This document shows, in pieces, positions 10,569 through 54,628 of a stretch of DNA of 64,000 nucleotides. Made by a program: the position numbers and the translations under genes. The stretch is taken from the NCBI RefSeq assembly GCF_023638035.1, contig NZ_JAKRVX010000001.1, positions 496,001-560,000 of the forward strand, read 5' to 3'. Position 1 is the first letter of the stretch, and each line of letters starts with the position of its first letter. Source of the DNA: Natronocalculus amylovorans (lineage in GTDB: Archaea > Halobacteriota > Halobacteria > Halobacteriales > Haloferacaceae). A model generated the notes under the pieces. That model was given only the letters and a program-made list of their open reading frames with translations, had not been told where the DNA came from and did no database searches.

Positions 10569-12866
10569 ATGTCTGACAGGATCCAGAATGTCTTGCTACT
10601 CACAACAGAAGACCTTCAGGAGGCACTTGAGACAACGCTGTCACCAGCATTTACTGTCAAGACAAAAACACCACCAGCAAACAGGGCAACAATCGTCGAG
10701 GCAGACTGTATTGTGACGACTGAATTGCTTACGACAACCGTGGATACACCAGTCGTCTACTGTGGGGATGAGTCTGTGGATTCGATCGGTCAATCATACC
10801 GAGTTGATGCACTGATACGACCGTCTCAGATCGAAATGGCTGTAGAACAGGTTCGAGTTGCAGTACGGAATCAGCGGGACGAACAGTCCCGGATCGATCG
10901 CCTCCACGAAGCGGCAACTGAGCTAATAACTGCCGAGACACACGAAGAGGTCTACACGCGTATTGGTGAGGTTGCAAACCGCGTGCTTGAGTTCGAAGAC
11001 TGTTATCTTGGAATTGTTGAGAATGAGATGTTCATTCCAAAGTTTTCAGTGAGCAAGGAGGTTGGCCCACGGCCACTAAAATATGGCCAGCTTGGCGAAA
11101 CATACAGAACTAAGAAATCGACACTTATCCACGACTTAGGGGCCGAATCATCGGCAACCCCCGCGCGCCAGCGGTACCGATCGGGCATTAGCGTCCCTAT
11201 TGGAAAGTATGGTGTACTGCAAGTCATTGGTGCTGAGACCCATAGCTTCACACAACGTGATCTTGAACTCGCAGAACTCCTTGCAACGTATGCGGTTGGC
11301 ACACTCTCACGCATTGAGTCAGAAAGCGAACTTCGGGAGAGCCGACGAAGGACCGAGAATCTACAAGAAGGCGCAACAACGCTTGCAACGGTTATTGAGG
11401 AGCAGGATGCATTTGAGACAATGGTCGATATTGCAGAGCGAATTCTTTCGTTCGACCGATGCGTTGTGATGGATGTCGATGGCGAGTACCTGACCCCACG
11501 TGCGTACTCCACAAATGCACAGCCAGATGATGCAGCACCAATGCATATTTCCGAGGGACTATGCGGGTGGTGTTATCGGAACAGTGAATCAAGAGTGGTG
11601 AGCGATCTCGCAACAGATACAAAGTCAAATCCACAGAAGGCGGAGTATCGATCAGGAATAAGCATCCCGATTGGAGAGTTTGGCGTCTTTCAAGCAGTTT
11701 CAACCGATCCAGATGCGTTCACAGATCGAGATAAAGAGCTCGGTGAGTTGTTAGCATCACATGTTCGAGAGACGCTCGACAGGATTCTTGCCGAACAAAA
11801 ACGGAACGCCGAACGCGATCGACTCGCAACGCTGTTTGAAAACATCCCAGATGCAGGCGTTGCATTCGAGTATCGCCATGGTGAGCCAATTATCAAACGG
11901 GTCAATACCGCATTTGAGCGGGTATTTGGATATGAGGAAACAACCGTTCTTGGAAAGAGTTTGGACGAATTCATACTGCCGACAGATGACCCGTTAAAAC
12001 AGGCAGAGGCAGACCGGCTAAATAGACGGTTGCAAGCCGGTGACAATGTTCGAGTGGAGGTTGAGCGAATCGCTGCAGATGGTTCGCGATACTTTTTATT
12101 ACACGTTGTTCCGCTTCAACTCGATGCGGAAAATGTCAATGGATATGCAATCTACACCGACCTCACAACACAAAAAGAGCGAGAACAAGAGCTCACAGCA
12201 CAAAACAAGCAGCTCGATGAGTTTGCAAGTATTGTAAGCCATGACCTCCGAAACCCGATCAATGTTGCGTCGGGCTATCTCGAACTTGCGCGCGAGACTG
12301 GCGAGGATGCATATCTTATGCAAGTGAGTGATGCAATTAATCGGATGGATACACTGGTGGGAGACCTTTTGTTATTAGCACGGAAAGGTACGGAGATCCA
12401 AGAACAGACCACGCTCGATCTGTTCTCAATCGCAAACCAAGCGTGGGACAACGTCGATACAAAAGAGGCAGTGTTGGAAATCGACGAAACAATCACACTT
12501 AAAGCCGATCGAGGGCGGCTATTAGAGCTCTTTGAGAATCTGTTTCGGAATGCAATCGAACACGCAGGTCCTACAACCAAAGTGACGATTGGGCCGATCG
12601 ATAATGAACGTGGATTCTACGTTGCTGACGATGGACCTGGAATCGGTCAAGAAAGTATCGAACGAATATTTGAGACCGGATACACAACGATGGAGGATGG
12701 AACTGGACTCGGCCTTGCCATCACAGAGCGTATTGCAGATGCACATGGCTGGGACTGTACCGTTCATACGGGAGACGTTGGTGGTGCACGATTTGAATTT
12801 GTTACCGACGTTTCAGCGTCAAACGGCACCGAAGATACATCTTCAGTAACGAGAACAAACCGTTAG
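10569..12866 (+). CDS. Sensor histidine kinase with two GAF domains and a PAS domain
   Basis: 765 residues with no membrane segment, so soluble. Residues ~1-100 look like a degenerate receiver-like domain without the usual Asp triad. GAF1 spans ~105-250 and GAF2 ~265-410; both share an RSGIS-PIG-(F/Y)GV core, suggesting an internal duplication. A PAS domain follows (~415-540), then HisKA with the phospho-acceptor in SHDLRNP, and HATPase_c with the N box (FRNAIEH), DDGPGI and GTGLGLAI. It should autophosphorylate in response to a small ligand or redox signal. No response regulator is nearby. Its stop overlaps the convergent threonine aldolase stop. Confidence 0.93.
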   Translation: MSDRIQNVLLLTTEDLQEALETTLSPAFTVKTKTPPANRATIVEADCIVTTELLTTTVDTPVVYCGDESVDSIGQSYRVDALIRPSQIEMAVEQVRVAVRNQRDEQSRIDRLHEAATELITAETHEEVYTRIGEVANRVLEFEDCYLGIVENEMFIPKFSVSKEVGPRPLKYGQLGETYRTKKSTLIHDLGAESSATPARQRYRSGISVPIGKYGVLQVIGAETHSFTQRDLELAELLATYAVGTLSRIESESELRESRRRTENLQEGATTLATVIEEQDAFETMVDIAERILSFDRCVVMDVDGEYLTPRAYSTNAQPDDAAPMHISEGLCGWCYRNSESRVVSDLATDTKSNPQKAEYRSGISIPIGEFGVFQAVSTDPDAFTDRDKELGELLASHVRETLDRILAEQKRNAERDRLATLFENIPDAGVAFEYRHGEPIIKRVNTAFERVFGYEETTVLGKSLDEFILPTDDPLKQAEADRLNRRLQAGDNVRVEVERIAADGSRYFLLHVVPLQLDAENVNGYAIYTDLTTQKEREQELTAQNKQLDEFASIVSHDLRNPINVASGYLELARETGEDAYLMQVSDAINRMDTLVGDLLLLARKGTEIQEQTTLDLFSIANQAWDNVDTKEAVLEIDETITLKADRGRLLELFENLFRNAIEHAGPTTKVTIGPIDNERGFYVADDGPGIGQESIERIFETGYTTMEDGTGLGLAITERIADAHGWDCTVHTGDVGGARFEFVTDVSASNGTEDTSSVTRTNR

Positions 12867-38731: not shown

Positions 38732-39925
38732 ATGGCAACGTGGCGTCTTGTTTCGATGATTCTGTTTTGGCAGGTTGCCGCCAGCATCATCTACTACTCC
38801 GTCTTTGCCGCGACACCGTTTTTTCGAGATGAGTTCCAACTCTCTGGATTTGCGGTTGGATTAGTTGTCACCTCGCTCACGCTTGGTTATGCGGTGTTTT
38901 TGTTACCGCTTGGAGCGATGACCGATCGGTTCGGAGAGCGTCGAACGCTCACCGTTGGAATCCTTGGGCTCTCGGTTGGGGCGCTGTTAGTGACCGTTGC
39001 ATGGTCATACCCCGCGTTACTGCTTGCGGCATTTCTGCTTGGGTCGTTGTACGGCACAGCGATGCCCGGGACAAACAAAGCAATCTTCGATAACGTTGCA
39101 GCCGGGCGACAGAACCTTGCAATGGGTATCAAACAGGTCGGTGTCACCGCAGGCTCCGGCATTAGTGCGTTGCTTGTGACGTGGATTGCAGGGATACTGT
39201 TCTGGCAAGCAGGGTTCATCACCGCAGCGATTTTTGGGCTGCTTGCTGCAGTGCTCTTCTTCGGATTCTACCGAGATGGCGGCGGCAGTGGCGCTGCATC
39301 ATATCCCGATTTTGGTGGATTAGCACGGAACAAACCGTACCGATCGCTCACCATTGCAGGCTTCTTTTTGGGTGCAGGACTGTTCACAACAACCGGCTAC
39401 ACAATTCTATTTATTGATGAGTCGATCGGGGCGACGGTTGCCTATGGCGGTGTTGTGCTTGCACTCTTGCAAGTGTCTGGAAGCGTTGGTCGTGTTCTTA
39501 CTGGATGGCTCAGTGACGTACTGCCCGGTGAGCCGCGAAAATCGATCGGCGCGATCCTGCTCATTCAAACGATCGCTGGCGTGATACTCTTTGTTGTTGT
39601 TGCGTTCAGTGATACCGTGCTTACGGCAACAGCCGCACTCATTGGACTTGGCTTTTTTGTGCTTGGGTTTACCGGCGTCTACTACTCTTGTATGGCAACG
39701 CTCGTCGGGCCGGATGAGATGGGAAGCGCAACTGGTGGTGGACAGTTGTCGCTCACATCAGGTGCGCTTGTTGCACCACCTGCATTTGGCTATCTGGCAG
39801 ATATATACGGCTATCAAGCCTCGTGGTTGTTGCTTGCTGGGTTTGGTTGTTTGGCGATCGGGTTCATCATTTACGTTATCCGAACTGAACCACCTGTTAC
39901 ACGAACCGCTGCAGCAGTCGAATAA
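38732..39925 (+). CDS. MFS transporter
   Basis: 397 residues with twelve hydrophobic segments in two halves. The loop-2 motif (PLGAMTDRFGERRT, ~65-78) and its loop-8 counterpart (GWLSDVLPGEPRK) are present. It resembles the antiporter-type or oxalate/nitrate-type permeases; the substrate cannot be told. No co-transcribed enzyme is nearby. Confidence 0.92.
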   Translation: MATWRLVSMILFWQVAASIIYYSVFAATPFFRDEFQLSGFAVGLVVTSLTLGYAVFLLPLGAMTDRFGERRTLTVGILGLSVGALLVTVAWSYPALLLAAFLLGSLYGTAMPGTNKAIFDNVAAGRQNLAMGIKQVGVTAGSGISALLVTWIAGILFWQAGFITAAIFGLLAAVLFFGFYRDGGGSGAASYPDFGGLARNKPYRSLTIAGFFLGAGLFTTTGYTILFIDESIGATVAYGGVVLALLQVSGSVGRVLTGWLSDVLPGEPRKSIGAILLIQTIAGVILFVVVAFSDTVLTATAALIGLGFFVLGFTGVYYSCMATLVGPDEMGSATGGGQLSLTSGALVAPPAFGYLADIYGYQASWLLLAGFGCLAIGFIIYVIRTEPPVTRTAAAVE

Positions 39926-39977: not shown

Positions 39978-40361
39978 ATGCCGCTTCTTCAGCTTGACAC
40001 AACCTACGATCTAACGGAACAAGAACGCAGAAACTGCACCAAGATGCTCACACAATTGTACGTTGAAGAGATGGAGACAACCGCAGGTCACGTTGCCGTT
40101 GTTGTTCGATCGCACCCAGCGGAGTCGCTTTCGATCGGTCGGGCCGTTGATGGACCGCTCGCCTTCCTTGATGCGGACATTCGATCGGGGCGATCGTTTG
40201 AGATGAAACGATCGTTCGGACTCGCCGCGATGAACTATCTCCATGCGGAGTGGGATGTCCCAGAGCCAAACCTCAAGGTTGCATTCACCGAACATCCCGG
40301 AGAGCAGCTGATGGGAGTCGATCGGGTTGGCGGTGACTGGACACCTGACGACACGACTTAA
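39978..40361 (+). CDS. Tautomerase-family (MIF/4-OT-like) protein
   Basis: 127 residues from MPLLQLDTT. Pro-2 is present as the possible catalytic base. The rest fits the beta-alpha-beta tautomerase unit: AGHVAVVVRSH, then a second unit ending NLKVAFTEHPGEQLMGVD. The frame upstream to 39591 is only a shadow of the MFS gene. Its last four bases overlap the convergent glyoxalase gene. Confidence 0.75.
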   Translation: MPLLQLDTTYDLTEQERRNCTKMLTQLYVEEMETTAGHVAVVVRSHPAESLSIGRAVDGPLAFLDADIRSGRSFEMKRSFGLAAMNYLHAEWDVPEPNLKVAFTEHPGEQLMGVDRVGGDWTPDDTT

Positions 40362-40732
40362 TCGAGGCGCTCAACCAGTTCGACAACATAGCCGTCAGGG
40401 TCTTCAACGAATGCCACACGGCGAGAGATCTGTTCCAGTGTCGTTGGTGGCTCATGTACTGGTGGATCTTCGCGCTCGATTAGTTGTTCAAAAGCCTCAT
40501 CAGTGCTTTCGACACCAATCGCAATATGATCCACACCACCGCCACCCCCAGTTTCGTACTCCCCATCAGGATCGTATTTGCACTGGAGTTCGCCGTGTGC
40601 GCCACCAAGGTAGACATTGCGAACACCGTCGCTTGTGAACTCCCAATTGTGCTCAAGCCCCAAGCCTTCGGTGTAGTACTCGATCGTCCGGTCAATATCT
40701 GAGACCCAAAGCGCGGTATGAATAACGTCCAT
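40358..40732 (-). CDS. gloA: Glyoxalase I-like VOC protein
   Basis: 124 residues. Two betaalphabetabetabeta units of the vicinal-oxygen-chelate fold: MDVIHTALWVSDIDRTIEYYTEGLGL and VDHIAIGVESTDEAFEQL, with the metal His in IHTALWV and DHIAIGV and the Glu in LQCKY/YVVELVERL. Typical lactoylglutathione lyase type; haloarchaea would use another thiol. Start at the ATG 40730-40732. Confidence 0.9.
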   Translation of the reverse strand: MDVIHTALWVSDIDRTIEYYTEGLGLEHNWEFTSDGVRNVYLGGAHGELQCKYDPDGEYETGGGGGVDHIAIGVESTDEAFEQLIEREDPPVHEPPTTLEQISRRVAFVEDPDGYVVELVERLD

Positions 40733-40830: not shown

Positions 40831-41265
40831 ATGTATCGAATCTTGCTACCGGTAGATAGCGACAAAGAGCGAGCGAAACGACAAATCAATACAGTGCAAT
40901 CCCTGCCACGAGGGCATGACGTTGAAGTCATACTCTTGCATGTACACGAACCGATCGACTCGCCAGGGGATGAAGCAGGAGGGAGTGTTATCGACGAAAT
41001 TAATCAGTCACTTGCTGAAATACAGGGGACGCCAGCGTCGGTCGAGGAGGCGTATGAGTCACTGACGGAGGCTGGATTCTCGACGCGTGTTGGAACGGCA
41101 ACAGGCGAGCCGGTAGACTGCATTCTCGAGGTGGCTGCCGATGAAGACGTAGATATGATTGTTATTGCAGGTCGAGAACGATCGCCGGTTGGCAAAGCAC
41201 TCTTCGGGAGCGTAACACAGGGCGTTATTCTCCGGAGCGACCTCCCAGTAACGGTTGCAAAATAA
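40831..41265 (+). CDS. Universal stress protein (UspA family)
   Basis: 144 residues. Starts MYRILLPVDSD (nucleotide loop) and ends with the ATP-binding signature G-x2-G-x9-G-S (GRERSPVGKALFGSVTQGVI). Binds ATP and is usually induced by stress. Its stop overlaps the start of the SDR gene (TAATG), so it is in the same transcript as the catabolic genes. Confidence 0.92.
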   Translation: MYRILLPVDSDKERAKRQINTVQSLPRGHDVEVILLHVHEPIDSPGDEAGGSVIDEINQSLAEIQGTPASVEEAYESLTEAGFSTRVGTATGEPVDCILEVAADEDVDMIVIAGRERSPVGKALFGSVTQGVILRSDLPVTVAK

Positions 41266-42068
41266 TGCCACCAGAACTAGACGGAACACGATGTCTGCTC
41301 ACCGCTGCAAGTAAGGGGCTTGGTCGGGCGGCCGCTGAAGCGCTTGTTGCCGGTGGCGCAACGGTGGTGATTACCTCACGGAGCGAAGCAAACCTCGCTG
41401 CAGCCCGTGAATCAATCTGCAATGTAACAGGTGTAGAGAAAGGGCGTGTACAGACGACAGTGTGTGATTTAGCTGACGAGGACGGGATCGTCACGGCAGT
41501 CGAAACCGCCGTTGAACTGCTCGGTGGCTTGGATGTGCTGGTGACGAATCACGGCGGGCCATCAGTTCAGCCGATCGCAGAGACGAGTGTGTCAGAGTTC
41601 GACGCGGTGTATGAGCGTGTGCTGCGGAGTACGTTCCTCACGCTCAAAACAGCGCTTCCCCATCTCACCGCAGATGACGGTGGGTCAATCGTCAATATCG
41701 TCTCTGCAACAGCAGCGGAGCCAAAAGCAGGCGACGTGTTTCAGGCTTCGCTTCGTCCCGGCATCTATGGCCTCTCAAAAAGTCTCGCAAACGAGTATGG
41801 ACCGGATGGGGTGCGCGTGAACTGTGTGCGTCCGCGGGGAATAATGACTGACCGGTTGGTCGAGAAAATCGAGTACCTAGCAGAAAAAGAGGGTGTGAGC
41901 GTTGCCGAAGCGGAAGCAATGCGGTCCGCTGAGCTTCCCGTTCGACGCCTTGGCGAGCCCGGTGAGTTAGGGGATGCAGTTGCCTTCCTTGCAAGCGATG
42001 AATCGAGCTACATAACTGGCGAAACGCTTGCGCTCGATGGTGGCTGGTCACGGGGTGCGTTCCCATGA
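41265..42068 (+). CDS. SDR-family oxidoreductase
   Basis: 267 residues, classical short-chain dehydrogenase. NAD(P) site TAASKGLGRAAAEAL (~11), NHGG (~92), Ser in VNIVSAT, and YGLSK providing the Tyr and Lys of the catalytic site. C-terminal family end ITGETLALDGGW. Probable role in the cluster: oxidation or reduction of a hydroxy/keto intermediate. Overlaps the MmgE/PrpD gene start by four bases. Confidence 0.92.
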   Translation: MPPELDGTRCLLTAASKGLGRAAAEALVAGGATVVITSRSEANLAAARESICNVTGVEKGRVQTTVCDLADEDGIVTAVETAVELLGGLDVLVTNHGGPSVQPIAETSVSEFDAVYERVLRSTFLTLKTALPHLTADDGGSIVNIVSATAAEPKAGDVFQASLRPGIYGLSKSLANEYGPDGVRVNCVRPRGIMTDRLVEKIEYLAEKEGVSVAEAEAMRSAELPVRRLGEPGELGDAVAFLASDESSYITGETLALDGGWSRGAFP

Positions 42069-43489
42069 GCGAACCCTCAATTGCAGCCAGGCTTGCAGCT
42101 CATGCAGTTGAAACCACGCCTGCGGAGCTAACACCGGAGGTGACGGATACAATCGGGAAGGTAACCCTTGATTGGCTTGGCCTTGTGGTCGGTGGGGAAG
42201 CGATCGCAGGCTCAACCGAGAGCGTCACTGCAGGCATGCAGGCGCTTACAGGGGACACAGGATCGAGCAACGGCGCGACAGGTGATGGCCGTGCAACGGT
42301 GCTGCCAACAGGCGAGCGGGTTGCGCCCGATCGGGCTGCGCTGCTCAACGGAACCTACGCACATAGTCTTGATTTTGATGATACACACCGTTCTTCATCC
42401 TCTCACCCCGCAGCGCCAGTTATTGCTGCTGCGATGGCCGCAGCAGAGGCAACAAACTCCTCGGCGAGTGAGCTAACGACAGCGATCGCTGTCGGCTACG
42501 ATGTTGCCTGCCGAATGGGTGAAGCGGTCAATCCAGACGGCCACTATGGTCGTGGCTTCCACATCACGGCAACGTGTGGAACGTTCGGTGCAACAGCTGC
42601 GGCTGGTCGGTTGTGGGGGGTATCAGTTGAAGAGCTCACCTCCGCGTTTGGGATCAACGGAAGCCAGGTTGCTGGATCGCTCCAATTTTTGGAAAACGGT
42701 GCATGGAACAAACGGCTCCATCCGGGGCTTGCGGCGAGCCGTGCGATCGAGGCAGTCTCGCTTGCAGCATCCGGCTTCCGTGGCTCCGAGAAACCAATTG
42801 AAGGAACACACGGGTTCTTTGCTGGGTATACTGATGATCCGATTCCATCGATCCTTGATGACATTCAGACCGGTGATGCGGTCTTAGAGACCGCGTTGAA
42901 GCCATACCCTTGCTGTCGGTATATGCACGCCGCAATTGATGCACTCATCGAGCTCGCAACAACACACAATATCGATCCGGCGACCGTCACGGCTGTTTCA
43001 GTTGATCTTCCTGCAGCAGGTGTGACACTAACTGGCGATCCAATCGACAGAAAACAGCGACCGCAGAACTTTGTCGACTGCCAGTTCAGTATGCCGTTCG
43101 CCGCCGCGTTGGCGCTTTCAGGGCGGGATGTTGGGCTTGCAGCGTTCCGTGAGGCTCAGTCCACCCTTGATTCACCATCCCGAAAGGAGTTGATGGATAC
43201 CGTGTCCGTCACAACAACCGATCGGACCCGATCTCGGTTCCCGGAAGTTTGGGCTGCGGGGGTGACGATCGAGACGGAGACAGACAGCTATGAACGGTTC
43301 ACCGAATACGCTCGTGGAGAGCCGGAAAACCCACTCACATGGGACGAGACTGTTGCTAAATTTGAAGAGTTAGCGACTGCTGCCGCGATCGATAGAGAAA
43401 CGCAACAGGCTGCAATCACGGTCTGCCAGGAGCTTTCAAACAGCGATCGGGAGACCGTTACCGAATCACTGTACGGCATCTGTCGGTGA
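42065..43489 (+). CDS. MmgE/PrpD-family protein
   Basis: 474 residues, full length. Family stretches: HSLDFDDTHRSSSSHPAA (~97), AVGYDVACRMGEA, GFHITATCGTFGATAAA, KPYPCCRYMHAAIDA (~278), DCQFSMPFAAALAL. Members are 2-methylcitrate dehydratase, cis-aconitate decarboxylase and others with unknown substrate. The D, H and K residues that line the active site are present in these motifs. The start overlaps SDR (ATGA). Confidence 0.93.
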   Translation: MSEPSIAARLAAHAVETTPAELTPEVTDTIGKVTLDWLGLVVGGEAIAGSTESVTAGMQALTGDTGSSNGATGDGRATVLPTGERVAPDRAALLNGTYAHSLDFDDTHRSSSSHPAAPVIAAAMAAAEATNSSASELTTAIAVGYDVACRMGEAVNPDGHYGRGFHITATCGTFGATAAAGRLWGVSVEELTSAFGINGSQVAGSLQFLENGAWNKRLHPGLAASRAIEAVSLAASGFRGSEKPIEGTHGFFAGYTDDPIPSILDDIQTGDAVLETALKPYPCCRYMHAAIDALIELATTHNIDPATVTAVSVDLPAAGVTLTGDPIDRKQRPQNFVDCQFSMPFAAALALSGRDVGLAAFREAQSTLDSPSRKELMDTVSVTTTDRTRSRFPEVWAAGVTIETETDSYERFTEYARGEPENPLTWDETVAKFEELATAAAIDRETQQAAITVCQELSNSDRETVTESLYGICR

Positions 43490-43561
43490 GCACGCGATCG
43501 GTTTCTCGGAAACCTTTGTTCGGACCCAACCGCCTAAATCACAGTACCATGATTATTATAA

Positions 43562-44767
43562 ATGATGGTTACGCAGTGGCGAAATAACATTTCACTGACC
43601 GAAACACAAGAGTCGGTTCGAACAGAGATTAGCGCGCTGTGTTCGGATTTTGACGAGGCGTATTGGCGACAGAAAGATGCAGAGGGAGAGTATCCGTTTG
43701 ATTTTGTTGAGACACTCGCGGCAGAAGGGTGGCTTGGAACGCTTGTCCCCGAAGAGTACGGTGGCAAAGGCCTTGGAACCGAAGAAACCGTTGTCATGAT
43801 GAACGAGATTGCTGCAAGCGGGGCAGGGTTTAGCGGTGCACAGACCGTTCATGCGGCAATCTACAACTCCTCACCGCTTGTTGCATACGCGAGCGAAGAG
43901 ATGAAACAAGACCTGCTTCCACGGGTGGCAAGTGGTGACGCTTGGATCCAATGTTTCAGTTTAACCGAACCAAAGGCGGGATCTGACTCAACCGCAATGA
44001 CAACCGAGGCGGTTCGTGATGGAGACGAATACGTTGTCAACGGCGAGAAGTTGTGGACCTCTCGGATCGACGTGAGCGACTATCTTGTACTCGCAGCGCG
44101 CACAACCCCGCGCGAAGATGTGGAGAAAAAAACGCAGGGCGTGTCGCTGTTTTTAGTTGATATTGAAGCCGGTCGTGAGAACGGATCGATCGAACTCGAA
44201 GAGATTGACAAGACCGTAAGCGGCGTTGTCCATTCGTTCCGCGTAACATACGATGACCTCCGGATTCCGGCGTCGAATCTCATTGGAGAGGAAGGACGGG
44301 GGTTCTACCACGTGTTGGATGGATTGAACGAAGAGCGGCTTGTAATCGCTGCAGAGTGTGTTGGGTTGGGCGAGTTAGCGATTGAAAAAGGCGTCGAGTA
44401 TGCGAATGAACGAGAGGTGTTCGGTCGAAAAATTGGGCAGAATCAGGGCCTTCAACACCCGCTTGCAGATGCCTATGCACAGATCCAGGGTGCAAAACAG
44501 GTGACATTCAATGCGGCCCAGCAGACGGATGCCGATCGAAAAACGGTCGGCGCACAGGCAAATACTGCAAAGTACCTCTCCGCAGAAGCAGCCTTTGCAG
44601 CCGCAGATGCAGCTGTTCAAGTTCACGGTGGCAGAGGTGTCGATCGCGAATATGACGTTGAGCGATACTTCCGAGAAGCGCGGCTGACACGACTGGTTCC
44701 GATAACACAGGAACTGGCACTCAACTACCTTGGGGAGAACGTCCTTGGGCTTCCACGATCATACTAA
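43562..44767 (+). CDS. Acyl-CoA dehydrogenase
   Basis: 401 residues. FAD motifs: CFSLTEPKAGSD (~125), VVNGEKLWTSR (~159) and the C-terminal QVHGGRGVDREYDVERYFREARL. After that the usual IYEGT carrying the catalytic Glu reads LVPITQELALNY, so the base is not in the MCAD position. The end VLGLPRSY is shared with a group of acyl-CoA dehydrogenases of unclear substrate. A gap of 72 bases before it may contain its own promoter. Confidence 0.93.
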   Translation: MMVTQWRNNISLTETQESVRTEISALCSDFDEAYWRQKDAEGEYPFDFVETLAAEGWLGTLVPEEYGGKGLGTEETVVMMNEIAASGAGFSGAQTVHAAIYNSSPLVAYASEEMKQDLLPRVASGDAWIQCFSLTEPKAGSDSTAMTTEAVRDGDEYVVNGEKLWTSRIDVSDYLVLAARTTPREDVEKKTQGVSLFLVDIEAGRENGSIELEEIDKTVSGVVHSFRVTYDDLRIPASNLIGEEGRGFYHVLDGLNEERLVIAAECVGLGELAIEKGVEYANEREVFGRKIGQNQGLQHPLADAYAQIQGAKQVTFNAAQQTDADRKTVGAQANTAKYLSAEAAFAAADAAVQVHGGRGVDREYDVERYFREARLTRLVPITQELALNYLGENVLGLPRSY

Positions 44768-44775
44768 AAAAAACA

Positions 44776-45351
44776 ATGACTGACGAAAACAATACAAAAA
44801 AACAGCTCGTTGAGGGATGGCACGGACGCTACTACGAAGATTTCAGCGTCGGAGATATCTACAAACATCCGTTTGGCCGAACCGTTACCGAAACCGACAA
44901 TGTGTGGATGACGAACATCACAATGAATCTCAATCCGATGCATTTCAACGAAGCATATGCAGCGGAGACGGAGTTTGGCGAGCGGCTTGTGGATGGAACG
45001 TTCGTTATTGCACTTGCCGTTGGAATGAGCGTAATTGATGTTTCGGTGAACGCAACCGCCAACCTTGGTTATGATACGATTCGCCATCATGCACCGGTGT
45101 ATCATGGAGATACGATTTTTGCAGAGAGCGAAGTGATCAAAAAGCGTGAGAGTAGTTCGCGTGATCATGTCGGGATTGTGACCACGGAGCTGCGAGCATA
45201 CAACCAAGACGGAACAAAGGTGCTCTCGCTCGAGCGGACACCGATGGTACTCAAACGAGCGTATGCAGAGCCATCAGCCGCACAGCCACCTGGATGGCCG
45301 GAAGGAATTGGTGTGCAGCCGGACACAACGCAAACACCAACAGACGAATGA
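44776..45351 (+). CDS. MaoC-family (R)-enoyl-CoA hydratase-like protein
   Basis: 191 residues, hot-dog fold. RYYEDFSVGDIYKHPFGRTVTETDN (~15-40), then NPMHFNEAYAAETEFGERLVDG, where the Asn/His-type hydratase site (N-P-M-H) replaces the usual D-x-N-x-x-H slightly. Probably hydrates an unsaturated CoA ester, next step after the dehydrogenase. The stop overlaps the CoA-transferase ATG. Confidence 0.9.
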   Translation: MTDENNTKKQLVEGWHGRYYEDFSVGDIYKHPFGRTVTETDNVWMTNITMNLNPMHFNEAYAAETEFGERLVDGTFVIALAVGMSVIDVSVNATANLGYDTIRHHAPVYHGDTIFAESEVIKKRESSSRDHVGIVTTELRAYNQDGTKVLSLERTPMVLKRAYAEPSAAQPPGWPEGIGVQPDTTQTPTDE

Positions 45352-46808
45352 GTTTCGACCCACAAGATGGGCGGATTCAGGGTGCGGTTCCACGCAGTAC
45401 TGCGGACAAAGCCGCAGCACTCGTCCCGACGGATGCCGTCATTCCGGTCAGTGGCTTTGGTGGTGTTGGCTACCCGAAATCCGTGACACGATCGATCGCA
45501 GCGGATGATCGAGAGATGGAACTCACAGTCATCAGCGGTGGTGGTGTTGGTGCGGAAGTTGATGATGCACTCGTCGAGGCAGGTAAGCTCGCACGAAGAT
45601 ACCCATTCCAGACCCGACGCAAAGTACGCGATGCAATCAACGAGGGGACCGTTGCGTTCCACGATCGACACATCTCTCGCGTGGGCGATGAAGTCCGGCT
45701 TGGTGATTTTGGTGAGCCGGATGTTGCGATTGTTGAGGCCGTTGCGGTCGGCGAAGACTGGTTGATCCCCTCAACCTCAATCGGAAATACACCAGCGTTT
45801 GTTGCAGCCGCTGATGCACTAATTGTTGAAGTAAATCATGCCCAACCGATCGAGCTGGCACAGGTACACGATGTGTACACGCGGGCGTTGCCACCGGATC
45901 GAGCACCAATTCCGCTTGGTGGGCCGATCGATCGGATCGGAACGCCAAAGATCGAGTTCCCGAGCGAGAAGCTCATTGCAGTTGTCGAGACCGATCGATC
46001 GGATACTCCCTACGAGTTCCGCGATCCAACCGCTGTTGACCTACAGATTGCAGCGAATCTCGGATCGTTCCTTGAGGCGGAACTCGAACGAAATCCAATG
46101 CTCAAAGAGCGCGTCCATCTACAGTTTGGCGTCGGCAGCATGGGCAATGCATTAATGGGAGCGTTAGATGAGATCGAGTTCGGTGATCGTGATGTGATCT
46201 ACTTCGGAGAGGTGTTCCAAGATGGGCTGCTCGATAGCATCGATAGCGGACTGCTTACTGGGGCAAGTGCGACATCGTTGGCGCTGTCTCTGGATGGGCA
46301 GGAGCGGCTGTTTGCGGATATCGATCGATATGCCACGGATGTTGTGCTCCGACCGGCAGACATCTCGAACAATGCGGCGCTCATCGAGCGATTTGGTGTT
46401 GTCGGAATTAATAGTGCAGTCGAGGTAGATCTGTACGGAAATGCAAATGCAACGCATATCAATGGGACACATGTGATTAATGGCATTGGTGGTGGGGGAG
46501 ACTTCAATCGGAACTGCCGTCTAGGCATTATTGCGCTTCCATCCACCGCAGCAGGTGGAGACATCTCAAAGATCGTGCCGATGACACCACACGTGGATCA
46601 TACCGAACATGATCTATCTGTGGTTGTCACCGAACACGGTGTTGCTGACCTGCGTGGGTTAAGTCCGCGTGAGCGTGCTGAGGAAATGATTGCGGTTGCT
46701 GACCCACAGTACAGAGAACAACTGGAGCGTTACCGATCCCGAGCAAAAAAATCAAGCGGAAATATCATGCACGATTTTGCGACAACCCACCGCTGGGAGA
46801 CTGAATGA
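45348..46808 (+). CDS. Acetyl-CoA hydrolase/CoA-transferase family protein
   Basis: 486 residues from MSFDPQDGRIQG. Cat1-like family I CoA-transferase: N-terminal half with PVSGFGGVGYPKSV, C-terminal half with GINSAVEVDLYGNANATH holding the likely catalytic Glu, GIGGGGDFNRNC and VVTEHGVADLRG. It would activate an organic acid by taking CoA from a donor such as acetyl- or succinyl-CoA. ATGA overlap with MaoC shows co-translation. Confidence 0.93.
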   Translation: MSFDPQDGRIQGAVPRSTADKAAALVPTDAVIPVSGFGGVGYPKSVTRSIAADDREMELTVISGGGVGAEVDDALVEAGKLARRYPFQTRRKVRDAINEGTVAFHDRHISRVGDEVRLGDFGEPDVAIVEAVAVGEDWLIPSTSIGNTPAFVAAADALIVEVNHAQPIELAQVHDVYTRALPPDRAPIPLGGPIDRIGTPKIEFPSEKLIAVVETDRSDTPYEFRDPTAVDLQIAANLGSFLEAELERNPMLKERVHLQFGVGSMGNALMGALDEIEFGDRDVIYFGEVFQDGLLDSIDSGLLTGASATSLALSLDGQERLFADIDRYATDVVLRPADISNNAALIERFGVVGINSAVEVDLYGNANATHINGTHVINGIGGGGDFNRNCRLGIIALPSTAAGGDISKIVPMTPHVDHTEHDLSVVVTEHGVADLRGLSPRERAEEMIAVADPQYREQLERYRSRAKKSSGNIMHDFATTHRWETE

Positions 46809-46923
46809 GATTGGGATATAAATGCCAATATAATTATTTATTAAAATGTGAGTTGGAAATTTTTGCGAGAACAGCGGCTGAAACAGGGGTTTAGTTGCGG
46901 AATATCTCATCAACTGCGACACC

Positions 46924-46930
46924 CTTATAC
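46924..46930 (+). promoter_or_regulatory. TATA-like box of the TAXI binding-protein gene
   Basis: CTTATAC is centred ~29 bases before the ATG at 46956. The 147-base gap between the CoA-transferase and this gene is AT-rich, so the transporter may be transcribed separately. Confidence 0.5.
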
Positions 46931-46955
46931 CAACGAAAGAATATGATGGATACGT

Positions 46956-48005
46956 ATGCCTACAGGTGACATGCCATCACGGCGCGATATGCTCAAGGGC
47001 GCAGCGACGCTGGGGGTTATCGGGTTAGCTGGTTGTACAGGCGATGACGATGATGGAACGACGACCATCACGATTGGTGGAACGTCTTCGGGTTCCTCTA
47101 CACAACAGGCTGGCCAGGCGCTCGCGCGAGCAGCGAGCCAGCACAGCGACATTGTCGAGATTTCAGTCCAGCAGACAGATGGATGGACTGCAAATCTGTA
47201 TGAGTATGATGAAGGACAGATTCCTGCGATGGGTGTTGACAACAACTCGTTGTCACAGGCGCTGAATGATTCAGGACCGTTCGGAGATGAGCCTGTTGAG
47301 AGTCTGCCCCACCAAGGATTTCAGTTTACTTCGTTGGAGATGCACTGGGTTGCACTCGAAGGGAGTGGTATTGAATCCACGGAGGATATTCGAGAGGGTG
47401 GATATACGATCTATCCAATCCAGCCTGGCTTCGGTACACGCCTCCTGACGGAGGATGTTATTCGTGAAGCTGACATGTGGGATCAAAACGAGATCTCTAA
47501 TGTAGATACAGATGACATTCCAGGTGCAGTTGAGGAAGACCGAGTAGATGCACTCTGTCTCTACGGTTCAAACGGTGTTGACCTTGCGAGCTGGTGTCAA
47601 GAGGTCGATGTTCGAAGTAATGAACGCCTCAACCTGATTGAGGTTGATGATGACTTTATTCAGACGATTGATGACCATCCTGGAGCAATCCTTCTCGAGG
47701 ATTTCGAGCCGTACGGCTACCAACAGGATGTAGACGCAATCACAGATACCTCAGCAGGATGGGCCCTTGCAGGCCAGTGGGCATTTAGTCCAGAGATCCC
47801 TGCGGAGGCAACCCGTGAAGTCTGCCGCCTTGCAATAGAACACGAGGAGACGCTCCGTGAGGCAGACCCAACAACGCTCGAATACTCGCCAGAGGTTATG
47901 ACAGAGACAGTCATCCCGGAGCTTGAAATCCATGAAGGGGTTGCAGACTTCTTCGAAGATGAAGGCGTTTGGGACGACTCCTGGACTCGTGGCGAAGCAG
48001 AATAA
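46956..48005 (+). CDS. TAXI-type TRAP transporter solute-binding lipoprotein
   Basis: 349 residues. Tat signal (SRRDMLKG, residues 8-15), lipobox LAGC (~26), then acidic and Ser/Thr linker. The body matches TAXI binding proteins: TITIGGTSSGSSTQQAGQALARAAS at the start, DNNSLSQALND, and AGWALAGQWAFSP at the ligand cleft. It captures an organic acid outside the cell for the permease that follows 34 bases later. Confidence 0.93.
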   Translation: MPTGDMPSRRDMLKGAATLGVIGLAGCTGDDDDGTTTITIGGTSSGSSTQQAGQALARAASQHSDIVEISVQQTDGWTANLYEYDEGQIPAMGVDNNSLSQALNDSGPFGDEPVESLPHQGFQFTSLEMHWVALEGSGIESTEDIREGGYTIYPIQPGFGTRLLTEDVIREADMWDQNEISNVDTDDIPGAVEEDRVDALCLYGSNGVDLASWCQEVDVRSNERLNLIEVDDDFIQTIDDHPGAILLEDFEPYGYQQDVDAITDTSAGWALAGQWAFSPEIPAEATREVCRLAIEHEETLREADPTTLEYSPEVMTETVIPELEIHEGVADFFEDEGVWDDSWTRGEAE

Positions 48006-48039
48006 GTAACAAATAATCTTTATTTAGGGACGCAGACGG

Positions 48040-50271
48040 ATGGTAGACACAACTAAAGAAACGGCTGTATCGCCCGGTTCAGATAGTACAGATGATGAGC
48101 AACTGCTCGCAGATTCCGAGTCACTGGTTCTTGCAGAGGGAAGTAGAGGTCGCAAACAGCTTACGTTACTTGTCGCTGCAGTTGGATTTTGGATATTCAA
48201 CTTTTGGATATTACCTCAGTTCCTTCCAGGTACCATACAAGCGGTGATTGTTGCGCTTGGGTTGGCGGTATTCGTTGGGGGGATCTTGAAACTCTCCTCA
48301 ACCGTCGACGATCGACTTCGGTTTGCACTACTTCACGGGTCATTACCATTCTGGTTGAGCGTGATGTGGTACTCAAGCACACAGTTGATTCCACGGGGGC
48401 AATTTGGGGTTGCATTCTTGGGTGGCATTCTCGTGTTATATGTCATTTCGCAACTTGCAGATCCAATCAACAACAGGAACTACCTCGATCTGTTTGGTCT
48501 GCTTTCCTCGGCAGTAATTGCAACTGTCACCTGTGCGTATCTATACACGAATTATCAAGCAGTAGCAATTGATTCGGTTGGCCGGGCAACACAGCCGGAA
48601 CTGGTTATGGCAGTTGCATTTACGGCTGCAATGATTTTCCTTACGTGGCGAGCGTTCGGAATGACGTTCCTTGTGGTGGTTCTTGCAGGGATTGGATACG
48701 GACTGTTTGGGATGTTCGCACCAGGAGCGCTAAATCACCCTGGCCTTTCAGGAACCCGTATACTCCGTATTCTCGTCGTGAGTGTAGATGGATTCTTCGG
48801 GTTCCTTAACCGGCTTGTCGCAGCATGGATTGCACTGTTCCTCTTGTATGCCGGATTGCTGAAGGCGTATGGTGCATTTGATCTTATTCTTCGGCTTGCA
48901 GTTCGATCGGCAAAATACATTGATTCGGGAATCGCACAAACAGCAGTTGTCGCGAGTGCAGTGATTGGATCGGTAAACGGGAGCCAAACGGCAAATGCAG
49001 GCATGACTGGCTCATTTACCATCCCACTCATGAAAGAAGCCGGTATCGAGCCGGAAACTGCAGGTGGTATTGAGTCGGTTGCATCAACTGCTGGGCAGGT
49101 GCTTCCACCAGTGATGGGTGCAGGTGCATTCGTCATGGCATCGCTGATCACTGGCGTCTCCTACGTTGACGTGATTATTGCAGGACTGATCCCTGCATTC
49201 ATCTTGGTTGTCTCGATCGTTATTGCAGTGCACTACGTTGCAGCGCCACAGATCGAAGATCCATCGATGTCTGGATTGATTGGCGATCCACTACCGACAC
49301 AACAAATCGTTCTCGAGGCGATCAAATATGGAGTTCCGCTAGCAGTCTTGATCTTCATTCTCGGCGTGCTTCAGTGGACCGTGATGACGGCTGCACTCTA
49401 CACCTCGGTATCGATGATCCTATTTGGGATTGGAATTCCAATTATTTCTGCAGCACTCAATCGAGAAAGCATCATTACCGCATTCATCGACACCATCAAA
49501 CAGACGCTCGATGGTGCGAGAGAGGGAGTTATTGTCTTAGCACCGGTGGCGATCATTCTCGCGTCGATCAACGGTGTTGTTGATATTCTACAGACAACCG
49601 GTGTTCCAACCGCAATTTCGCTCACACTCATCGAGCTTTCCGGTGGTGTACTGCTGATTGCAGTCATCCTTGCAATGATCATTTGTATTCTACTTGGCCT
49701 CGGTATGCCAACGACTGCAGCATACACGATCGTTGCACTGCTGATCGCACCAACACTGATCAATCAGTTCTTTATCCCTGACTTCGCATCACACTTCTTC
49801 GTGTTCTACGCAGCGATCTTAGCAGGGTTAACGCCGCCAATCGCAACCTGTGTGGCTGTGACATGTGGTATCTCCGGCGGAGGCTTTTGGACAAGCTGTC
49901 GGGAAGCATTAAAAATCTCGGCACCGCTTTTCGTCCTGCCATTCGCCTTTATTTACCATCCGGAAATCGTGTCGGGAGTGTTCAACTACGCATCACTCTC
50001 TGCAGGAGCGCTCGCACTTGTTGGGGCAATCTCGATCATCCACGGAATTAATTACCGATTCGCCTTTGGACGAGCTCCAAAATACGGGCTCCGGGTGGCG
50101 TTCTTCGTGCTTGGTATTGTTGTGATGGTCTATCCAGAACAGCTGGTCCAGTTGGGTGGAGTCGCCGCAATCGGAGCGCTCTACATGCTCCAGATTGTCG
50201 CTGGAAGCGCCGCACCGCTTGATACGTTGAAAGGGATTGTTGGAACGGTCACTGGACGACGCGATCAGTAG
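48040..50271 (+). CDS. TRAP transporter fused permease (TAXI type)
   Basis: 743 residues with about 18 hydrophobic segments, equal to the fused DctQ-like (~40-230) and DctM-like (~230-640) parts. Family stretches: SVNGSQTANAGMTGSFTIPLMK (split in the DctM core), STAGQVLPPVMGAGAFVMA, LLGLGMPTTAAYTIVALLIAP. It moves organic acids with Na+. The extra C-terminal segments are typical for fused TAXI permeases. Confidence 0.95.
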   Translation: MVDTTKETAVSPGSDSTDDEQLLADSESLVLAEGSRGRKQLTLLVAAVGFWIFNFWILPQFLPGTIQAVIVALGLAVFVGGILKLSSTVDDRLRFALLHGSLPFWLSVMWYSSTQLIPRGQFGVAFLGGILVLYVISQLADPINNRNYLDLFGLLSSAVIATVTCAYLYTNYQAVAIDSVGRATQPELVMAVAFTAAMIFLTWRAFGMTFLVVVLAGIGYGLFGMFAPGALNHPGLSGTRILRILVVSVDGFFGFLNRLVAAWIALFLLYAGLLKAYGAFDLILRLAVRSAKYIDSGIAQTAVVASAVIGSVNGSQTANAGMTGSFTIPLMKEAGIEPETAGGIESVASTAGQVLPPVMGAGAFVMASLITGVSYVDVIIAGLIPAFILVVSIVIAVHYVAAPQIEDPSMSGLIGDPLPTQQIVLEAIKYGVPLAVLIFILGVLQWTVMTAALYTSVSMILFGIGIPIISAALNRESIITAFIDTIKQTLDGAREGVIVLAPVAIILASINGVVDILQTTGVPTAISLTLIELSGGVLLIAVILAMIICILLGLGMPTTAAYTIVALLIAPTLINQFFIPDFASHFFVFYAAILAGLTPPIATCVAVTCGISGGGFWTSCREALKISAPLFVLPFAFIYHPEIVSGVFNYASLSAGALALVGAISIIHGINYRFAFGRAPKYGLRVAFFVLGIVVMVYPEQLVQLGGVAAIGALYMLQIVAGSAAPLDTLKGIVGTVTGRRDQ

Positions 50272-51134: not shown

Positions 51135-53405
51135 TCAGGCCAGGATCTCCGCCGGCGGCGCAAGGTCGCGCCGGCCACCGAAGGTGATGAAGAACAGCAC
51201 ACCCAGCCCTACCGCATACGCGAACAAGAGCGGGATCGTCACAAGGAACATGGTCATGATGTCCGCTGGCGTAAACACCGCAGCGAATGTCAGCATGGTA
51301 ATAAAGACCTCACGCCAGCGCTTTCGCATCGATCGGTACGGCACACCAGCACTGTTCAGAAGTACCATCATGATTGGGATATCCGCAAGGAACCCAATGC
51401 CGAGCGTGGTGAAAATGATCAGCCACATGAAGTCGTTAATCCGATAGCTGATAATCATGTTCGCTGCGAGCGCATCAGCTGCGAGGAACGAGATTGTCAC
51501 CGGGGCGATAATCGAGTATCCTAGTGCAAAGCCACCGACCATCCCTGCCGTAAGTGCGCCAGTCCAAATGTAGACCGATCGCTGATGGCCACGGACAAAC
51601 CCAAGCTCTCTGAGCGATGGCCACGCATAGTACGCGATAACAGGCAGTGTAACAAAGATTGCAACAAGCACCGAGAACTTGACCATAAATATCAGTGCCT
51701 CAACCGGATGCAGCGTAATAACTGAAACGGCGTCACCGGGAGAACCCTCAAGCAGCACTGCGGTTCCTTGTTCGAACCCAGGATGTGTCCCATCGCCGCC
51801 GGAGACTACTTCGGCCGGCATCCGGCTGAAAAAGTCCTCTCGGACGTCGCGAAGTCCACCCACATAGAGCCACGCAAAGATACCACCCATTGCGAGCAGG
51901 AATGTTCCGACGATACGGAATGATCGCGATCGGAGGCTGTCGAAAATAAAGACGATATCTTTGTAGTAGCCGCCAATATCGTCCGAGTCGGTCTCGCCGT
52001 CGGTAAACTCACCAAGGAACGTGTCGCTTGCCCGTGAGGTTCGATCGCTGATGCTCTCAGACTCGCCGGATGTCTCTTCTGCGGTACCTCCCTCTCCGTC
52101 CGCGTTTTCGTCACTGGAATCCTCACGGAGATCTTCAGTTTCGTCGAACCGATCGATAATCGCTTGTGCTTTCTCCGTGTCGTCATTCTCCAGTGCTTGG
52201 GATGCATACCCCATCGCTTCATTTTCAGAGAGTGAAGCAAACGCTTCCGGGGGCGCAGCCTGGATACCTGCAGCATCAAGCGTTGTCAGATCAAGCGCGG
52301 TTGGGTCACCGAGGTTACTCTCTGGACTTCGGGTTGCGGCATCGAGTGCAACGTAGACGTAGTAAGCAACACCAAAGAGGGCGAATATCAACCCGAGGAG
52401 TGCACCGTAGATGAGCAACGAAATTTCCGCGGATGCAAAGCCAGCGTCAGGAGGGAGAATACGGTAGTCGCTCCCAACGCGGGCTAAGAGATCATTCGTT
52501 GCGGTTCGACCACCGTATTCGTGGTAGCCGTAGACCACAGCCATTCCGGTCGCAAATAGTCCGATAAGGACGTTCCAATGTGCTCGGATTGCAGCCTTGA
52601 CATCAATCCGCTCGCTCCCGCGTTTTGCGGTGACAACAATCTTGGCGAGATAGAGGCTGAGTCCGTACAAAACGATCAACGGAACCGCCCACATGATCTG
52701 TGTAAACGGATCTGGTGGCGAAAAGAACGCACCGAAGATGAAAATACCGAGCACAGCATGTCGCCATTTGTCTCGGAACGTTTCATACGGAACAATTTCC
52801 GCGTATGAGAGTGCGGTAATGAATAGCGGCATCTGCGCAGCAAGCCCGAAGGAGACTGTCAAAAGAACGATAAACTCGGTCCACATGACGATCGAATACG
52901 TCGGTTCAAATCCGGCATCAAAACCGAACTCCGCAAGGAAGCCGAACATGAACGGGAAGAAGACATTAAAGCCGTACGCAGCACCGCCGAGGAACAGCAA
53001 GATCGCAAATCCACCAATTGAAAATAGCTTCCAACGCGGAATCGGTGCTTGTGGCCAGTAGCCTCGCTCTCTCAGGGCATCCCGCGAAAAGTACAACAAA
53101 ACCGGAAGTGCGACAAAGATACCAACTACAAGTCCGATCTTTGCTTGCAAGAGGATAACGTCGAACGGTGTTGTCGCAATGATTTCGAAACTCTGTCCAA
53201 CCTCGGCGCGCATCCGAGATTCTGTGATGGCTTTGAGCCAGTCCCAAATGTACGTTCGGAGCGTCCAGAACGTAACGAGAAATCCAATAAGAAATGCGAC
53301 GAAGACTTTCTGAAGATCCTTCTGGGCGGATCGAAGGATCGCGTACAATGTATCACGACCTTCCAGCAATGTTTGCTGTGTATCTTCGCCGAGCGCGCTA
53401 GACAT
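51135..53405 (-). CDS. tatC2: Fused double TatC (TatCt type)
   Basis: 756 residues from MSSALGEDTQQTLLEG. Two TatC halves (~15-270 and ~530-740) are joined by an acidic central linker (~385-470, with a DSSDENADGEGG-like stretch) and added membrane spans. Each half shows the TatC membrane pattern (FLVTFWTLRTYIWDW..., LSYAEIVPYETFRDKWRHAVLGIFIFGAFFSPPDP; then PYRSMRKRWREVFITMLTFAAVFTPAD). Halophilic archaea have this fused form with a separate TatCo. It recognises twin-arginine signals. Start at the ATG 53403-53405; upstream frame to 53435 is not supported. Confidence 0.93.
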   Translation of the reverse strand: MSSALGEDTQQTLLEGRDTLYAILRSAQKDLQKVFVAFLIGFLVTFWTLRTYIWDWLKAITESRMRAEVGQSFEIIATTPFDVILLQAKIGLVVGIFVALPVLLYFSRDALRERGYWPQAPIPRWKLFSIGGFAILLFLGGAAYGFNVFFPFMFGFLAEFGFDAGFEPTYSIVMWTEFIVLLTVSFGLAAQMPLFITALSYAEIVPYETFRDKWRHAVLGIFIFGAFFSPPDPFTQIMWAVPLIVLYGLSLYLAKIVVTAKRGSERIDVKAAIRAHWNVLIGLFATGMAVVYGYHEYGGRTATNDLLARVGSDYRILPPDAGFASAEISLLIYGALLGLIFALFGVAYYVYVALDAATRSPESNLGDPTALDLTTLDAAGIQAAPPEAFASLSENEAMGYASQALENDDTEKAQAIIDRFDETEDLREDSSDENADGEGGTAEETSGESESISDRTSRASDTFLGEFTDGETDSDDIGGYYKDIVFIFDSLRSRSFRIVGTFLLAMGGIFAWLYVGGLRDVREDFFSRMPAEVVSGGDGTHPGFEQGTAVLLEGSPGDAVSVITLHPVEALIFMVKFSVLVAIFVTLPVIAYYAWPSLRELGFVRGHQRSVYIWTGALTAGMVGGFALGYSIIAPVTISFLAADALAANMIISYRINDFMWLIIFTTLGIGFLADIPIMMVLLNSAGVPYRSMRKRWREVFITMLTFAAVFTPADIMTMFLVTIPLLFAYAVGLGVLFFITFGGRRDLAPPAEILA

Positions 53406-53527
53406 ATGTGAAAAAAGCCGACTCGTTGTTATCAACTTTTTCTCTCGGGTCGCATGGTATTCGAATTGTTATCAGCGTAGATCAATCCGAAAAGGCCTAT
53501 AACGGATCACGAATGATTCACTAGTGA

Positions 53528-54628
53528 ATGGGAGAGAAGTCGGAACGCTCACCCCACGACGAATCGACCGATCGTGATCGAAAAGAGCGTTCATCCGACG
53601 ATTCGTCGGAGCAGCCTTCCTCGGAAGAGACAAGCGAGGAAACAGTCACCGAAGGTAGAGAGAGTGACGACGACGTGGGTCTGGCTGCAAGGGATATCGA
53701 TGTGAACGGTACGAACACAGAAAGGGATACAAACGAAACCGACCAGCCAGAAGATTCCGAAGACACAGAAGATGTCGAAGAGGAGGTAGACGCTGAAGAA
53801 ACATCAACAGACGGTGGGTCTACAGCATCTGTTGGTGTTGGAAGCGAGATCGATTCGGGAACCGAAACCGGAGGTTCAGATGACGTCGACGAAGAGTTAT
53901 TTGAAGCTCCCGACGAAGATGAGGAGATGCCGCTCGCAGATCACATTGATGAGATGATGCGGCGTCTCGGTGTCGTCTTCGCGTTTGGTGGGGTTGCGAT
54001 GTTGATCACATATCCATGGGCAGGAGATACAATCAATTACCTATGGGGCACACACATCCCACAGCCAAATGTGAATGCTCCTCGAATTTACGGCCCGTTG
54101 GAGTTTATTCTTACAAAACTGAAGGTAGCAGGCCTTGCAGGGTTGTTGGTTGGGCTCCCGGTGTTCGTGTATCAGACATACCGATTCATGAAGCCTGGGC
54201 TCTATCGGAATGAACGGAAATACTACCTTGCATCAGTCCCGACGAGCCTCGTTCTCGGGATTGTTGGCGTGCTCTTTGCACATTTCATAATCTTACCGTT
54301 TATTTTTAGCTACTTTACCGTCTACACAGAGGATGCAGCAGCAGTTGCATTTGGCCTCCGAGAGACGTTTGCAATGATGCTTGCGTTGATGGGCTACATG
54401 GCCGTGATTTTCCAGATCCCGCTATTCATCATGCTTGCAATTATGATGGGCCTTGTGACGCGAAAATGGCTCGAAGACAAACGGCTCATCTTCTGGGGGT
54501 TGTTCGTGGGAGTTGCATTCACGTTCACTGCTGTCGATCCAACAGGAATGGCACCAATCATTATCGCATTAACGATGATTGCCCTCTTTGAGATCACGCT
54601 CGCGCTCCTTCGGTGGACCGGGAATTAG
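53528..54628 (+). CDS. tatC1: TatC, single form (TatCo type)
   Basis: 366 residues. The first ~135 are very acidic and Ser/Glu-rich and lie in the cytosol; then a six-span TatC core (~136-366): PLADHIDEMMRRLGVVFAFGG, VYQTYRFMKPGLYRNERKYY, SYFTVYTEDAAAVAFGLRETFAMM, FTAVDPTG. Divergent from tatC2; both promoters lie in the 53406-53527 gap. Confidence 0.95.
   Translation: MGEKSERSPHDESTDRDRKERSSDDSSEQPSSEETSEETVTEGRESDDDVGLAARDIDVNGTNTERDTNETDQPEDSEDTEDVEEEVDAEETSTDGGSTASVGVGSEIDSGTETGGSDDVDEELFEAPDEDEEMPLADHIDEMMRRLGVVFAFGGVAMLITYPWAGDTINYLWGTHIPQPNVNAPRIYGPLEFILTKLKVAGLAGLLVGLPVFVYQTYRFMKPGLYRNERKYYLASVPTSLVLGIVGVLFAHFIILPFIFSYFTVYTEDAAAVAFGLRETFAMMLALMGYMAVIFQIPLFIMLAIMMGLVTRKWLEDKRLIFWGLFVGVAFTFTAVDPTGMAPIIIALTMIALFEITLALLRWTGN

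Follow-up and report, generated by a model that had tools for sequence, protein, structure and literature searches.

The window analyzed here is the whole stretch of 64,000 nucleotides of Natronocalculus amylovorans (G000:C2:496001-560000), part of a haloarchaeal genome of 3.26 Mb (20 contigs, 99% complete). Eight consecutive genes on its plus strand encode a UspA-family protein, a short-chain dehydrogenase (SDR), an MmgE/PrpD-family protein (here MmgE), an acyl-CoA dehydrogenase (ACAD), a MaoC hydratase, a class I CoA-transferase, and the binding protein and fused permease of a TAXI-type TRAP transporter (Table 1). An earlier note made from the letters of the window had read them as a linked module that imports and oxidizes a di- or tricarboxylic acid or a branched acid and not a fatty acid, with MmgE/PrpD adding a CoA-free step. 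Profile matches bear out the eight genes with their families, places, and common strand, and the linkage is conserved in other haloarchaea. The analysis supports uptake and CoA-dependent catabolism of a branched, short dicarboxylic acid and also the CoA-free step.

Table 1. Genes of the cluster and its flanks (window coordinates)
Feature	Position	Strand	Profile match or other basis
MFS transporter	38732..39925	+	Pfam MFS_1; probable peripheral member, second transporter
Glyoxalase/VOC-family protein	40358..40732	-	Pfam PF00903; divergent from the cluster, peripheral member
UspA-family protein, first gene	40831..41265	+	PF00582
Short-chain dehydrogenase (SDR), YxxxK present	41265..42068	+	PF13561
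MmgE/PrpD-family protein, proposed free-acid isomerase/epimerase	42065..43489	+	PF03972 and PF19305
Acyl-CoA dehydrogenase (ACAD), Mcd sister	43562..44767	+	Identity and tree
RipB/Ich-like MaoC hydratase	44776..45351	+	Best NCBIfam model RipB_Ich, below cut-off
Class I (Cat1-type) CoA-transferase	45348..46808	+	PF02550/PF13336
TAXI-family TRAP solute-binding lipoprotein	46956..48005	+	PF16868, TIGR02122
Fused TRAP (TAXI-type) permease	48040..50271	+	TIGR02123 above cut-off

Stop/start overlaps had been described at four junctions, but only three were found: UspA/SDR (TAATG), SDR/MmgE (ATGA), and MaoC/CoA-transferase (ATGA). At the remaining junctions the genes are separated by 72 bp (MmgE/ACAD), 8 bp (ACAD/MaoC), 147 bp (CoA-transferase/TAXI), and 34 bp (TAXI/permease). 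Because of these four gaps, the eight genes may be transcribed in two or three pieces, comprising UspA-SDR-MmgE, ACAD-MaoC-CoA-transferase, and TAXI-TRAP. The clearest TATA-like site is situated ∼26 bp upstream of the UspA gene, a distance that fits a leaderless start. The TATA-like elements before the TAXI and permease genes are weak, and a scan of the sequence upstream of the ACAD gene revealed no convincing site. Scans for bacterial sigma-70 promoters gave chance-level results and those for terminators barely more; both are uninformative for an archaeon.

The MmgE protein was searched against 60 relatives, and the flanks of the matches were then compared. The complete eight-gene order is present in one other haloarchaeal genome (G035), and seven of the eight genes occur in two genomes of another genus (G001 and G028). 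In these two genomes the ACAD is missing from the cluster, and a 67% identical orthologue is kept elsewhere; the ACAD was therefore rejected as a fixed member. Identities per gene range from 51 to 92% across the three genomes, which also keep the upstream MFS gene (70–81% identical) and the divergent VOC gene (71–81%). Because the order recurs in diverged genomes, the linkage exceeds chance.

Using the MaoC protein as bait, 80 haloarchaeal loci were examined for neighboring genes; since some of them stop at contig ends, the counts given here are minimum values. The contig scan used short, highly conserved patterns that bacterial relatives at ∼50% identity would escape, and such relatives were taken from plasmid records instead. 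MaoC is 75–92% identical in the 80 loci and is present in about a third of the genomes sampled from the class (142 of 391). A CoA-transferase gene directly follows it in most loci, of class I in 39 and of class III in 10, and never of both. The ACAD gene is directly upstream in 30 loci and within ∼10 kb in 47. An MmgE gene lies upstream in 16 loci, and 29 have one nearby (7 window-like, 22 of other lineages). TAXI and TRAP genes follow the module in 17 loci, an MFS homologue occurs in 13, and an SDR homologue (≥45% identity) in 7. Unsupervised clustering of the neighboring reading frames gave the same leading families around MaoC. According to these neighbor counts, the conserved heart is (MmgE)-ACAD-MaoC-CoA-transferase, and the transporter, SDR, and UspA are more variable.

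On comparison of gene content and families, the best functional match of the module is the itaconate-methylsuccinate cluster of Pseudomonas aeruginosa (PA0878-PA0886) and Cupriavidus necator. Its enzymology has been solved: the MmgE/PrpD protein is an (S)-(R)-methylsuccinate isomerase (Msi), and the ACAD is a methylsuccinyl-C4-CoA dehydrogenase (Mcd) (PMC12290011). The transporter and deletions of the bacterial cluster have also been described (PMC9875883). Reference proteins were taken from a P. aeruginosa plasmid copy (L200), which encodes Ich, Mcd, VOC, Msi, Ict, and Ccl, followed by a TRAP transporter. As in the window, MmgE/PrpD, ACAD, hydratase, and CoA-transferase occur together in these bacteria, accompanied by a VOC protein and, in P. 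aeruginosa, by the TRAP transporter. In contrast, their CoA-transferase belongs to class III (Ict) and not class I, their MmgE falls in another clade, and the window cluster has no Ccl. The window hydratase is of the RipB type, with no BLAST match to P. aeruginosa Ich, and the transporter is TAXI-type and fused, whereas that of P. aeruginosa is DctPQM. The window cluster also adds UspA and SDR, and its host is an archaeon. The window VOC gene was rejected as an orthologue of PA0880, because the proteins are 28% identical and NCBIfam places it nearer to lactoylglutathione lyase.

The same gene combination occurs with a RipB-type hydratase in Azospirillum and Rubrobacter and with one of the P. 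aeruginosa type in Shinella. The earlier note knew of no description of the combination in haloarchaea. A search of the open-access literature, with subscription papers outside its scope, likewise found no description of this pathway in haloarchaea; in bacteria, MmgE, ACAD, hydratase, CoA-transferase, and TRAP are known together with an assigned function. The window module probably functions like the bacterial methylsuccinate/itaconate cluster, yet it is a member of neither known type, that of P. aeruginosa or that of Yersinia pestis (see below). We regard it as a haloarchaeal variant because it departs in MmgE clade, CoA-transferase class, Ich type, and linked lyase, and we conclude that it was probably assembled separately and does not derive from the bacterial cluster by descent.

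The window ACAD is 46.5% identical to P. aeruginosa Mcd and at most 35% identical to the six other ACADs of the genome. A carefully built tree unites the ACADs of the haloarchaeal clusters in one clade (support 100/98). This clade joins bacterial Mcd and ACADs from operons that contain a CoA-transferase, MaoC, CoA-ester lyase, and TRAP (100/99), and the window ACAD stands apart from the paralogues of its own genome.

The MmgE protein belongs to the MmgE/PrpD superfamily, with matches to PF03972 and PF19305 above cut-off and a matching fold. It was rejected as a 2-methylcitrate dehydratase (PrpD) equivalog, because the NCBIfam PrpD score is 34.9 bits against a cut-off of 950. Residues His-100, Asp-103, His-114, Tyr-161, His-166, Lys-216, and Lys-279 are invariant in ten haloarchaeal MmgE proteins of two lineages. 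They match the catalytic set listed for iminodisuccinate (IDS) epimerase and methylsuccinate isomerase, including the epimerase tyrosine, which is proposed to set two-base epimerases apart from the one-base cis-aconitate decarboxylase (PMC12290011). The window protein shares the fold and the His/Lys catalytic set with IDS epimerase and cis-aconitate decarboxylase, but it is 22–26% identical to them and lies in another operon context. A structural model (mean pLDDT 80, pTM 0.87) gave Z scores of 41 for IDS epimerase, 40 for cis-aconitate decarboxylase, and 33–37 for 2-methylcitrate dehydratase. The fold comparison of the model cannot separate epimerase from decarboxylase.

With this tie and a RipB-like MaoC in the cluster, MmgE could act as a cis-aconitate decarboxylase and convert aconitate to itaconate, and the itaconate would then be broken down in a RipAB-like manner. 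This function would leave the ACAD without a role, however, and the tyrosine is the one assigned to the two-base epimerases, so that we consider a decarboxylase quite improbable. In a quick-method tree, P. aeruginosa Msi, 31.6% identical to the window MmgE, groups with MmgE proteins of Rubrobacter and Deinococcus, and other haloarchaea fill the MmgE slot with a lineage nearer to IDS epimerase. The MmgE/PrpD family is strongly expanded in some haloarchaea, with 10 matches in genome G026. In a locus of this genome (L039) and in one on a Halalkalicoccus plasmid (L047), four different MmgE/PrpD genes stand in a row and alternate in orientation.

The best NCBIfam model for MaoC is RipB_Ich (180.2 bits), and among solved structures the protein matches beta-methylmalyl-CoA (mesaconyl-CoA) dehydratase best. 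An N-x4-H dyad in MaoC is also present in RipB proteins and in domain 2 of mesaconyl-CoA hydratase. The closest match to MaoC on bacterial plasmids (54%) comes from a MaoC-MmgE-ACAD operon of Rubrobacter, the MmgE of which groups with P. aeruginosa Msi in the tree. The CoA-transferase aligns over its full length with succinyl-CoA:acetate CoA-transferase and keeps the glutamate motif, whose glutamate we take to be the active-site residue. As in the RipA-RipB-RipC system of Y. pestis, a CoA-transferase of class I (acetyl-CoA hydrolase/transferase superfamily) lies beside a RipB-like MaoC (50% identical to a RipB). In contrast to that system, the window CoA-transferase is nearer to succinate/acetate enzymes than to a RipA-like one (38% over 220 residues), RipC is not linked in the window, and ACAD, MmgE, and a transporter are added.

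The nearest relatives of the CoA-transferase are the succinate/acetate CoA-transferases, with 510 bits for the succinate CoA-transferase subfamily (below cut-off) and 488.7 bits for the succinyl-CoA:acetate CoA-transferase model, just under its cut-off of 500. The latter score would suit an ordinary CoA-transferase operon for a short-chain acid (acetate or propionate) with generic oxidation genes and without dicarboxylate specificity. However, class III enzymes of the dicarboxylate type replace class I at the same place, and dicarboxylates are also indicated by the TRAP transporter and by the subfamilies to which the linked ACAD and MaoC belong, so that such an operon is highly improbable. The TAXI type of the transporter was confirmed by a TAXI binding protein (PF16868, 49.3 bits, cut-off 27; TIGR02122, 69.3 bits, below the cut-off of 84.35) and one fused permease (TIGR02123, 374.8 bits, cut-off 320.65).

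The earlier note had described the enzymes as an almost complete beta-oxidation spiral without thiolase, but the comparison with bacteria indicates a C5-dicarboxylate route that needs a lyase. The tertiary alcohol citramalyl-CoA can be neither oxidized to a 3-keto acid nor used by a thiolase. Citramalyl-CoA is the hydrated product in the matching bacterial pathway (PMC12290011), and therefore the missing step would be a C–C lyase, with the SDR off the main line. The genome encodes a single HpcH/HpaI protein, on another contig (G000:C14:426117-426944). It resembles RipC (194 bits, cut-off 375) and CitE (205 bits, below cut-off) and is not a haloarchaeal malyl-CoA lyase (51.6 bits against a cut-off of 500). 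At L041:9115-10517, its gene is divergent from that of a second RipB-like MaoC, 42% identical to the window protein, and a glutamate dehydrogenase gene adjoins. In Halobellus captivus (L064), the orthologous MaoC-CoA-transferase pair is accompanied by a divergently oriented gene for a RipC-like lyase, and this arrangement ties the MaoC hydratase to a RipC-like lyase. The RipC/CitE-like lyase is present in 134 of 141 MaoC-positive genomes and in 205 of 250 others (p = 1.6e-4, phylogeny ignored).

The lyase also bears on a C1 route, in which methylsuccinyl-C1-CoA would pass through mesaconyl-C1-CoA and beta-methylmalyl-CoA and yield propionyl-CoA and glyoxylate, with a link to the enzymes of the methylaspartate cycle. 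The structural match of MaoC is to an enzyme of this route, and haloarchaea possess mesaconyl-C1-CoA hydratase-type enzymes (PMC5592240). The mesaconate CoA-transferase and mesaconyl-CoA hydratase of the haloarchaeal methylaspartate cycle resemble the window enzymes in their branched C5 CoA-ester chemistry and MaoC-superfamily hydratase, but they act on the C1 ester, their hydratase has two domains (∼358 residues, model length), and the window CoA-transferase is of class I. No two-domain mesaconyl-CoA hydratase was found in the genome, which together with the lyase type argues against the C1 route. The ACAD, moreover, is related to a C4-specific dehydrogenase, and we consider the C1 route improbable.

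Taken together, the cluster probably serves to take up and break down branched C5 dicarboxylates. Methylsuccinate is the most likely substrate, and itaconate and mesaconate would be further entry points. In the scheme that we infer from the sequences, including its substrates, C4 rather than C1 regiochemistry, co-regulation, and enzyme activities, the TAXI-TRAP transporter would import the acid, and MmgE would abstract and return a proton (His-114/Tyr-161) and in this way equilibrate (S)- and (R)-methylsuccinate. The class I CoA-transferase would shift CoA from succinyl-CoA to the acid, and the ACAD would then yield mesaconyl-C4-CoA. The RipB-like MaoC would hydrate this ester, or isomerize and hydrate itaconyl-CoA, to citramalyl-CoA, which the RipC/CitE-like lyase from the other contig may cleave to acetyl-CoA and pyruvate. 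The SDR and UspA are accessory.

Several observations weigh against this proposal. The MaoC score lies below the RipB/Ich equivalog cut-off of 340 bits, and the RipB, RipC, and CoA-transferase models all score under their curated cut-offs. Close class I relatives of the CoA-transferase act on acetate. The ACAD clade is a sister of bacterial Mcd and is not nested within it. In the quick-method tree, the window MmgE groups with MmgE proteins of Shinella, Bosea, and Sphingobium, outside the tested Msi clade, and for this reason it is not called Msi. The window cluster contains no lyase gene, and a CitE-like lyase is near MaoC in just 3 of the 80 loci. Nearly all haloarchaeal genomes carry the RipC/CitE-like lyase (340 of 391), so that its presence is weak evidence, and we rejected it as strong support. 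Finally, some Natrialbaceae have a thiolase gene next to the module, and a thiolase is at odds with citramalyl-CoA.

Mainly because of this thiolase, we keep open a different substrate, namely another branched or substituted succinate, such as a longer 2-alkylsuccinate or an aconitate- or tricarballylate-like acid. The order of reactions would be the same, with a different lyase or a thiolase last. The place of MmgE outside the tested Msi clade and the other MmgE lineages that take its slot elsewhere are consistent with such a substrate, and the pocket of methylsuccinate isomerase is predicted to accept larger substrates (PMC12290011). In Halomarina BND7 (L199:5657-8964), the orthologous ACAD-MaoC pair has as a neighbor a gene with the annotation tcuA (tricarballylate dehydrogenase). 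However, the 75–92% identity of MaoC in all contexts argues for one substrate, and the families nearest to MaoC hydrate C5 dicarboxylyl-CoA esters. Another succinate is thus possible but rather unlikely.

Some further features of these loci were observed. An isocitrate-lyase-family gene also adjoins the ACAD-MaoC pair of Halomarina BND7. In five Natronorubrum/Natrinema loci (L068, L071, L072, L073, and L076), the MaoC module is followed by a thiolase gene; most have an ACAD and a class III CoA-transferase, and most add an MmgE of another lineage. In the Natronorubrum locus L071, a TnpB-like reading frame (11716-12594), of the RNA-guided endonuclease family, is situated between the CoA-transferase and thiolase genes.

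On a broader view of the methylsuccinate/itaconate module, we see an even chance that haloarchaea have built a route of their own, a third arrangement beside those of Y. pestis and P. aeruginosa. Its basis would be a near-invariant RipB-like hydratase together with ACADs of a sister clade of Mcd that is private to haloarchaea. CoA-transferases of class I or III and at least two separate MmgE lineages would have been slotted in, and the route would draw its lyase from the near-universal chromosomal RipC/CitE-like gene. If so, branched C5 dicarboxylates would be a significant carbon source in brines, and the bacterial pathway of 2025 would extend to Archaea. Genes annotated by family alone would gain testable substrates (methylsuccinate, itaconate, and mesaconate). 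Parts, namely the class I or III CoA-transferase and the different MmgE lineages, would have been swapped within one route, and a function would be suggested for the near-universal haloarchaeal CitE-like lyase.

Beyond the cluster, the window contains two divergent TatC genes. One (51135-53435, minus strand) encodes a protein of 766 residues with two TatC matches, and the other lies at 53528-54628 on the plus strand.

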